A stretch of 64,000 nucleotides of DNA. Origin: an uncultured Bacteroidales bacterium (GTDB lineage Bacteria; Bacteroidota; Bacteroidia; Bacteroidales; UBA11471). Shown piece after piece: positions 3,587-48,818 of the stretch. Location of the stretch: contig CANQDQ010000006.1 in assembly GCA_947593515.1 (NCBI GenBank), positions 1 to 64,000 on the forward strand, in the 5' to 3' direction. The number at the start of each line of letters is the position of its first letter. The stretch's first letter is position 1. Under the pieces are notes generated by a model, which made no database searches, had not been told where the DNA came from, and was given only the letters and a program-made list of their open reading frames with translations. The position numbers were made by a program, and so were the translations under genes.

Positions 3587-3590
3587 TGTG

Positions 3591-3663
3591 TGGTACCACC
3601 AGGAATCGAACCGGGGACACAAGGATTTTCAGTCCTTTGCTCTACCAACTGAGCTATGGCACC
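3591..3663 (-). tRNA. tRNA-Phe (GAA)
   Basis: 73 bases on the minus strand fold as a complete cloverleaf: acceptor GGTGCCA/TGGTACC, D stem GCTC/GAGC, anticodon loop CTGAAAA with anticodon GAA, T loop TTCGATT. The discriminator is A and CCA is not encoded. Confidence 0.97.
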
Positions 3664-31443: not shown

Positions 31444-33321
31444 ATGAAATTCGACTATGATGTAATCGTGGTAGGTGCCGGTCATGCCGGTTGCGAAGCG
31501 GCTTCCGCAGCAGCTCGACTCGGCTCGGAAACGCTGCTTATCACTATGGATATGAATAAGATAGCCCAGATGAGTTGCAATCCGGCTATCGGCGGCATAG
31601 CCAAAGGGCAAATCGTGCGTGAAATCGACGCGCTCGGCGGACAGACCGGCATCGTTACCGACAAAACCACCCTCCAATTCCGTATGCTCAACCGCTCGAA
31701 AGGTCCTGCCATGTGGAGTCCGCGCGCGCAAAGCGACCGCCAAAAATTCATTCAGACATGGCGGGGCGTTCTCGAAAATACCGAACATTTGTATCTTTGG
31801 CAAGACAGCGTTAAACGCCTGATTATCAATAAAGACAATGCCGTTTCCGGCGTGATTACCAACATGGAGGTAACTTTCCGCGCCCGCGCCGTAGTGCTTA
31901 CTTGCGGCACGTTCATGAACGGATTGATGCACATCGGTCGCGTACAGCTCAAAGGCGGTCGCGTGGCGGAACCCGCCTCCTACGGCATCACAGAACAACT
32001 TGTGGAAATGGGCTTCACCGCCGGACGCATGAAGACGGGTACCCCCGTGCGCATCGATGGTCGCAGCATACACTACGACCTGATGACCGAACAAAAAGGG
32101 GAAGACGACTTCCACAAATTTTCGTTCCTCGACAACGTGCACCGCACCCTGCAACAACAGAGCTGCTGGATTACCTACACCAACGAAGCCGTACACGACA
32201 TTCTGCGGCAGGGCTTCCCCGATTCGCCGCTCTACAACGGACAAATAAAAAGCATCGGTCCGCGATACTGCCCCAGCATCGAAACGAAAATCGTTACTTT
32301 TCCCGATAAAACCGAACACCAACTCTTCCTCGAACCGGAAGGAGAAACGAGCAGGGAATTTTATCTGAACGGTTTTTCCTCCTCGCTCCCGCTCGACATA
32401 CAGATACGGGCGCTGCAAGAGATTCCGGCATTCAAAGATATTCGTATCTATCGTCCGGGCTATGCCATCGAATACGACTACTTCGACCCGACGCAGCTCA
32501 CGCACACCCTCGAAACAAAACAGGTAAAAGGTCTATTTTTCGCCGGACAAATCAACGGTACGACCGGCTATGAAGAGGCTGCCGGACAAGGACTGGTCGC
32601 CGGCATAAACGCCCACCTGCACAGTCAGGGCGGCGGTGAATTTACACTAAACCGCGACGAAGCCTATATCGGTGTACTCATCGACGACCTTGTAACCAAA
32701 GGTGTCGACGAACCGTACCGTATGTTCACTTCCCGCGCCGAATACCGCATACTCCTGCGGCAGGACGATGCCGATATGCGCCTTACGCCGAAAGGCTACG
32801 AACTCGGACTGGCAAGTGACGAACGTTACCGCCTGCTTCGCGAAAAAGAAGAACACCGGAACCGGATTATCCGTTTCGCCCAAGAGTATTCCGTAAAGAT
32901 GAATCAGATAAATCCGGCACTCGAACAGCAGGGCTACGCCCCCTTGCGGCAAGGGACGAAACTCGTCGATTTGATTCTGCGCCCGCAACTCACCATAGAT
33001 GCCATAGCCTCGTGGCTCCCCGCATTGCACGAACAGCTCGACCTCATTCCGTCGCGGCGGGAAGAAATAACCGAAGCCGCCGAAATCTGCATCAAATACG
33101 AAGGCTACATCGAGCGGGAAAAATTGATTGCCGATAAAATATCGCGCCTCGAAAATATCCGCATCAAAGGAAAATTCGATTACAATACCATACAGCAAAT
33201 ATCCATCGAAGCCCGCCAGAAACTCTCGAAGATAGACCCTGAAACCATCGCGCAAGCCTCGCGTATTCCGGGCATATCGCCGAGCGACATAAACATTCTG
33301 CTGGTTTTATTAGGAAGATAA
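31444..33321 (+). CDS. mnmG: tRNA U34 carboxymethylaminomethyl-modifying enzyme MnmG (GidA)
   Basis: 625 residues. FAD-binding VIVVGAGHAGCEAASAAARLG, the GidA signature CNPAIGGIAKGQIVREIDALGG, GPAMWSPRAQSDR, CGTFMNGLMHIG and GLFFAGQINGTTGYEEAAGQG are all present. With MnmE it installs the cmnm5 group at U34 of tRNAs reading NNA/NNG codons. Full length. The stop codon is directly followed by a parS-like palindrome. Confidence 0.97.
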   Translation: MKFDYDVIVVGAGHAGCEAASAAARLGSETLLITMDMNKIAQMSCNPAIGGIAKGQIVREIDALGGQTGIVTDKTTLQFRMLNRSKGPAMWSPRAQSDRQKFIQTWRGVLENTEHLYLWQDSVKRLIINKDNAVSGVITNMEVTFRARAVVLTCGTFMNGLMHIGRVQLKGGRVAEPASYGITEQLVEMGFTAGRMKTGTPVRIDGRSIHYDLMTEQKGEDDFHKFSFLDNVHRTLQQQSCWITYTNEAVHDILRQGFPDSPLYNGQIKSIGPRYCPSIETKIVTFPDKTEHQLFLEPEGETSREFYLNGFSSSLPLDIQIRALQEIPAFKDIRIYRPGYAIEYDYFDPTQLTHTLETKQVKGLFFAGQINGTTGYEEAAGQGLVAGINAHLHSQGGGEFTLNRDEAYIGVLIDDLVTKGVDEPYRMFTSRAEYRILLRQDDADMRLTPKGYELGLASDERYRLLREKEEHRNRIIRFAQEYSVKMNQINPALEQQGYAPLRQGTKLVDLILRPQLTIDAIASWLPALHEQLDLIPSRREEITEAAEICIKYEGYIEREKLIADKISRLENIRIKGKFDYNTIQQISIEARQKLSKIDPETIAQASRIPGISPSDINILLVLLGR

Positions 33322-33337
33322 TGTTCCACGTGGAACA
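33322..33337. promoter_or_regulatory. parS: parS-like centromere site
   Basis: TGTTCCACGTGGAACA is a perfect 16-bp palindrome that agrees with the conserved ParB-binding parS consensus (TGTTnCACGTGnAACA). It starts on the base after the mnmG stop codon and ends 16 bases before apt. The match to a chromosomal parS is exact at the sites I know to be constrained. ParB binding here is inferred. Confidence 0.85.
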
Positions 33338-33353
33338 ATAAACAAACAACCTC

Positions 33354-33878
33354 ATGGAAATAAACGATATTTACAAACAAGTTCGCGATATTCCCGACTT
33401 TCCGAAGCCCGGAATATTGTTCAAAGATCTCACCACCGTATTCAAAAACGGAGAATCGGTACAGCGGTTGAGCGACGAGCTTTATCGTCTTTACAAAGAC
33501 AAAGGTATCACCAAAGTTGCCGGCATCGAATCGCGCGGCTTCATCATGGGTTCCATACTGGCAGCCCGTCTCGGTGCCGGATTCGTGCCGGTGCGCAAAC
33601 CCGGAAAACTGCCTGCCGAAACGTGGACGGAAACTTTTGAAAAGGAATACGGCTGCGACGCCATCGAAATACACCGCGATGCCCTCGCTCCCGACGACGT
33701 GGTGCTGCTGCACGACGACCTGCTGGCAACGGGCGGAACGATGTTGGCTGCCTATCATCTGATACAGCGATTCCACCCGCGCAAGATATACATCAACTTT
33801 TTATCGGAAATTGTTGTTCTCAACGGGCGAAGCGTATTTCCTTCCGGCGTAGAAATAGAAACGATACTTAAATTCTGA
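33354..33878 (+). CDS. apt: Adenine phosphoribosyltransferase
   Basis: 174 residues. IPDFPKPGILFKDLTTVF, AGIESRGFIMG and the PRPP-binding loop VLLHDDLLATGGTMLAA define Apt. It salvages adenine to AMP with PRPP. It is first in an apt-uvrC-dtd-mazG-deoC run with short spacers. Confidence 0.96.
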   Translation: MEINDIYKQVRDIPDFPKPGILFKDLTTVFKNGESVQRLSDELYRLYKDKGITKVAGIESRGFIMGSILAARLGAGFVPVRKPGKLPAETWTETFEKEYGCDAIEIHRDALAPDDVVLLHDDLLATGGTMLAAYHLIQRFHPRKIYINFLSEIVVLNGRSVFPSGVEIETILKF

Positions 33879-48012: not shown

Positions 48013-48083
48013 TGTCTTATGGTGTAATGGTAGCACAACAGGTTTTGGTTCTGTTTGTCTTGGTTCGAATCCGAGTAAGACAA
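48013..48083 (+). tRNA. tRNA-Gln (TTG)
   Basis: A 71-base cloverleaf: acceptor TGTCTTA/TAAGACA, D stem GTGT/GCAC, anticodon loop TTTTGGT with anticodon TTG, T loop TTCGAAT, discriminator A, no encoded CCA. Confidence 0.96.
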
Positions 48084-48086
48084 CGC

Positions 48087-48741: not shown

Positions 48742-48744
48742 TAG

Positions 48745-48818
48745 CTCTTCAGGTAGGACTTGAACCTACGACCCTCTGATTAACAGTCAGATGCTCTAAC
48801 CGACTGAGCTACTGAAGA
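48745..48818 (-). tRNA. tRNA-Asn (GTT)
   Basis: A 74-base cloverleaf on the minus strand: acceptor TCTTCAG/CTGAAGA, anticodon stem TCTGA/TCAGA with loop CTGTTAA and anticodon GTT, T loop TTCAAGT, discriminator G, no encoded CCA. Confidence 0.96.

Follow-up and report, generated by a model that had tools for sequence, protein, structure and literature searches.

The locus analyzed here raises the question of whether a 16-bp palindrome, TGTTCCACGTGGAACA, located at 33322–33337 between mnmG and apt, is a parS centromere site of the chromosome, and whether its position marks the region of the replication origin. For the whole stretch of 64,000 nucleotides (the window; C6:1–64000), the original prediction had claimed that a perfect parS-like palindrome abuts the stop codon of mnmG ahead of apt, that a centromere site has been kept beside mnmG, and that this part of the chromosome lies near the origin. 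The first of these claims was exact. The gene mnmG (gidA; 31444–33321, plus strand) is an ORF with a TIGR00136 match of 805 bits, and the next gene here, apt (33354–33878, plus strand), encodes adenine phosphoribosyltransferase. The junction consists, in order, of ...GGAAGATAA (the end of mnmG), TGTTCCACGTGGAACA, ATAAACAAACAACCTC, and the ATG of apt. The first base of the palindrome, which has no strand, is the base right after the TAA stop codon of mnmG, and the apt start codon (33354) lies 16 bp beyond its end. The palindrome fits the degenerate parS motif TGTTNCACGTGNAACA exactly, as expected of a parS site. Elsewhere in the window, the only Rfam families found were three tRNA genes, for Phe (3590–3663), Gln (48013–48084), and Asn (48744–48818).

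A parS site is expected in few, unscattered copies. The window contained no second match to TGTTCCACGTGGAACA, even when 3 mismatches were allowed, and in the 2.26-Mb genome, a draft of 44 contigs with 99.4% completeness whose assembled contigs are covered by this count, the site was the sole match at 0, 1, or 2 mismatches. Ten further places were found at exactly 3 mismatches versus 7 for the reversed control, indicating that these places represent background. The count of the 16-mer that had been proposed as a check on the original prediction thus gave one copy and not many, whereas the chance expectation of one given 16-mer in 2.26 Mb is approximately 5e-4. In the order, exact TGTTNCACGTGNAACA was present in 95 of 148 genomes, versus 1 of 148 for the reversed control. 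A chance match was ruled out by these order-wide numbers together with the uniqueness of TGTTCCACGTGGAACA in the window and in the genome. Order relatives having any exact copy had 1–3 per genome; the perfect motif was missing from the other 53 genomes, some of which had one-mismatch forms at mnmG, and in others none was seen.

The position of the site was compared among relatives. In the family, all four available genomes had exactly one TGTTNCACGTGNAACA, directly after the TAA of mnmG, in the arrangement TAATGTTCCACGTGGAACA. Among 80 named mnmG loci of Bacteroidota (Bacteroidales, Flavobacteriia, and Cytophagia), 74 had a parS within 130 bp after the mnmG stop codon at up to 2 mismatches, and the reversed control had none; the number rose to 76 of 80 when the position just before mnmG was included. 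The distance from parS to the mnmG stop codon ranged from 2 to 123 bp across these loci. At the genome level, a site was located within 2 kb of mnmG in 55 of 56 genomes and within 150 bp in 51 of 56, the 56 being those among the matches listed and not a random draw. These results bear out, on a phylum-wide scale, the claim that the centromere site has been kept beside mnmG, and the check for a site after mnmG in other Bacteroidales showed conservation.

The closeness of apt suggested another reading, in which the palindrome is an operator for apt or for an mnmG-apt unit, with a purine-type repressor binding it in the 5' leader of apt. The distance of 16 bp to the apt start codon is compatible with this, and in 46 of the 76 loci with a callable next ORF, the plus-strand gene that follows is apt. 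However, another gene followed in the remaining 30, and the site kept to mnmG there, which indicated that it tracks mnmG and not apt. Moreover, a site stands just before mnmG in flavobacterial loci, one copy in each genome is not the pattern of a regulon, and the consensus is that of parS, for which a matching ParB is present. The apt operator was consequently dropped as the main reading on the independence of the site from apt as a neighbor, and we consider it very unlikely.

Several arrangements around mnmG were observed in addition. The flavobacterial site just before mnmG is a second parS-like site, so that mnmG is bracketed. Many Prevotella-like loci (within L017–L096) often have a second parS-like site 0.6–1.9 kb after mnmG. 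Tandem arrays with a spacing of approximately 37–45 bp were found in two loci: four parS-like sites before mnmG in L090 (approximately −2028 to −1913 relative to the mnmG end) and three in L117 (1411–1516). As exceptions, three named loci (L051, L064, and L081) lacked any parS-like site in the stretch examined when up to 2 mismatches were allowed, and one genome (G066) had mnmG and the exact site on different contigs (C36:11536 for the site and C1:28266–30113 for mnmG), with no site near mnmG.

An alignment of 80 sites showed that positions 2–4, 6–11, and 13–15 are near-invariant and that positions 1, 5, 12, and 16 are variable, giving a conserved core of GTT..CACGTG..AAC. The bases at positions 5 and 12 were combined nearly independently (C-G in 29, C-A in 22, T-A in 19, and T-G in 9 sites). 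This near independence points to two half-sites read by protein monomers, unlike an RNA hairpin, which would be the basis of a reading of the palindrome as an RNA stem-loop acting as the intrinsic terminator of mnmG or of minus-strand transcription. A consensus scan did give a terminator-like match on the minus strand. An intrinsic terminator should have a stable hairpin, kept pairing, and a T-run; in contrast, the fold of the site was no better than those of shuffled sequences (z = −0.56), there was no T-run after the palindrome on the mnmG strand, and the C-A and T-G combinations showed that pairing is not kept. The RNA terminator was ruled out on these three grounds, and the stem-loop reading appears to us extremely unlikely. 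Taken together, the linkage to mnmG where apt is not next and the half-sites lacking base-pair coupling indicated that both the apt operator and the RNA hairpin are incorrect readings of the site.

The protein expected to read such half-sites was found in the genome, as the original prediction required. A canonical chromosomal parB is located at C11:18135–18665 (TIGR00180, 193 bits), with parA immediately upstream, and no other TIGR00180 match was found in the genome. The encoded protein has ParB_N, HTH_ParB, and ParB_C domains, and its closest solved structures are those of Spo0J/ParB. In parS-specific variants, R173 is invariable and G201 is preferred (PMC7383237). The four specificity positions of that set were R-Y-K-G in the ParB of this genome, so that both R173 and G201 are of the parS type (residues are numbered as in PMC7383237, with a manually derived offset of 10 relative to chain 6t1f). 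The ParBs of Bacteroides fragilis and other relatives were closely alike around the specificity residues, and a ParB was found in all six genomes checked. The genome therefore encodes a chromosomal ParB with parS-type residues and a ParA, as a parS site would call for. The Noc-binding site (NBS) is likewise a related 16-bp palindrome, bound by a ParB paralogue, but Noc has Q173/R201. No Noc paralogue with Q173/R201 was found in this genome, in which the sole TIGR00180 match is R173/G201; since this is the only such match and the sequence of the site is that of parS, a Noc-binding site was ruled out.

To locate the site relative to the replication origin, nucleotide skew was analyzed along C6. 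An origin is usually recognized by a minimum of the cumulative GC skew. GC skew was negative in every 4-kb interval of the window (1–64000), the whole of which is placed to one side of the predicted origin by GC skew and four-fold sites. Both GC skew and AT skew inverted at C6:70,232, the cumulative GC minimum, 6.2 kb past the right end of the window and 36.9 kb (approximately 37 kb) from parS. At four-fold-degenerate sites of genes on both strands, the skew was −0.17 and −0.11 on the left and +0.17 and +0.29 on the right. Because these sites agree for genes on both strands, the inversion reflects replication skew, and gene direction was ruled out as its cause. The minimum is inside the 5' end of a gene (69370–70347) that we take to be nadA from a reading of its sequence. 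Beside it, an AT-rich intergenic gap at C6:70348–70634 (287 bp, 21% GC; 6.3 kb past the window) was noted as a candidate origin, and two DnaA-box-like TTATCAACA motifs on opposite strands are present in and just beyond this gap. The proximity of the site to an origin, at 36.9 kb with the origin placed by skew, agrees with what is expected of parS.

The same place was indicated by relatives. Two congeneric genomes (G002 and G003) had their skew minimum there as well, with parS 35.6 and 37.5 kb away; the contig of a further genome (G001) ends short of nadA. The gene neighborhood of the candidate origin is common to G002, G003, and B. fragilis (around 4,492,900). In the complete genome of B. fragilis Q1F2, the skew minimum within the 240 kb examined was at approximately 4,492,976, at nadA (4,491,949–4,492,863), with parS at 4,597,162, dnaA at 3.644 Mb, and parB at 0.178 Mb. 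Accordingly, parS is 0.10 Mb from the minimum, dnaA 0.85 Mb, and parAB approximately 0.9 Mb, and parB is approximately 0.78 Mb from parS. In another complete genome consisting of a single contig (G122), the skew inverts in the interval 1.62–1.66 Mb; mnmG is at 1.673 Mb together with two one-mismatch sites, and dnaA is at 0.467 Mb. The skew of a further genome (G146) was noisier yet consistent. In a published study of twelve gut bacteria, including two Bacteroidetes, coverage-supported origins were located at parS clusters and did not systematically coincide with dnaA, and the two Bacteroidetes had ParABS and origin-proximal parS clusters (PMC10197239). As dnaA of B. fragilis is 0.85 Mb off the minimum, in keeping with that study, the lack of dnaA in the window is no argument against origin proximity; dnaA is no guide to the origin in these genomes.

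The direction of the genes on C6 suggested the opposite reading, in which the parS is real but the inversion at C6:70 kb marks the terminus, leaving the site away from the origin. Of the 45 genes to the left of the inferred origin, 36 are on the plus strand and point towards the inversion; this opposes the usual co-orientation and would fit a terminus with an inverted skew. Nevertheless, the change of GC skew from negative to positive has the usual polarity of an origin, also at four-fold sites on both strands, and the coverage-supported origins of two Bacteroidetes are at parS (PMC10197239). In B. fragilis, sampled skew placed the opposite switch near 1.9–2.0 Mb; this switch is also where, on weak evidence, the sampled DNA had its two best dif-like sites. 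We retained the origin because of the skew polarity, the published coverage, and the positions of these dif-like sites, and regard a terminus as highly improbable. The conclusion that the parS site lies near the replication origin, and with it the claim made for this part of the chromosome, is thus supported by a skew inversion 36.9 kb away. Of the comparison with GC skew and dnaA that had been proposed, the skew part stood, and dnaA proved misleading as an origin guide.

A loading site for Smc-ScpAB would go with an encoded canonical Smc. None was detected in this genome, in which the best SMC_prok_B score was 24 bits versus a cut-off of 567, and none of the 148 genomes of the order exceeded the curated cut-off, with scoring limited to the few best candidates of each genome. 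A coiled-coil match on C17 was dropped as an Smc candidate; it fits no Smc family and looks like a lipoprotein-type coiled coil. No known condensin was found in two Bacteroidetes in the earlier study (PMC10197239). Because canonical Smc was not detected in this genome or the 148-genome sample, Smc-ScpAB loading at parS is probably absent here.

On the sequence evidence, TGTTCCACGTGGAACA is almost certainly the chromosomal parS, and apparently the sole one, of this Bacteroidota bacterium. By analogy with its family, the single chromosomal ParB encoded on C11 would very probably bind the 16-mer as a dimer, with one monomer per half-site. CTP-dependent clamping and spreading are known for ParB, and here ParB with CTP would likewise clamp and spread into the adjoining DNA. 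The ParA encoded next to it would then move the origin-proximal complex, leading to early separation of the replicated origins, and the Smc-ScpAB loading step is probably missing.

The site is a fresh instance of a well-known element, parS. It has the same 16-bp palindrome, with the GTT-CACGTG-AAC core, as the chromosomal parS of the ParABS systems of Bacillus subtilis (Spo0J) and Caulobacter (ParB), whose consensus is TGTTTCACGTGAAACA, and it resembles them also in its few copies, its place near the predicted origin, its cognate R173/G201 ParB, and the adjacent ParA. Unlike those sites, it is attached to mnmG and present in a single copy, parAB and dnaA are elsewhere, and no canonical Smc was detected. 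In many bacteria, gidA, gidB, parA, and parB form an origin cluster. The present locus is like that cluster in having mnmG/gidA and parS together near the origin, but parAB is outside the window, on another contig. What is noteworthy is how firmly parS has stayed at mnmG in most of the sampled Bacteroidota, with parAB and dnaA relocated elsewhere; in the part of the literature on parS with gidA or Bacteroides that we covered, no description of this linkage was found.

As a rather doubtful conjecture, the Bacteroidota centromere may have been selected to stay at mnmG despite the relocation of dnaA and parAB, for example through useful spreading of ParB over mnmG, and may also work without any condensin of the Smc type; segregation and folding of the origin region would then fall to ParA-ParB alone or to an undescribed condensin. 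In practice, parS by mnmG offers a simple fragment-level marker of the origin region for draft Bacteroidota genomes and metagenome bins, in which dnaA misleads. For the organism itself, the system is compact, with what appear to be a single parS, a single ParAB, and no canonical Smc, which could allow the role of ParABS to be studied separately from Smc loading.
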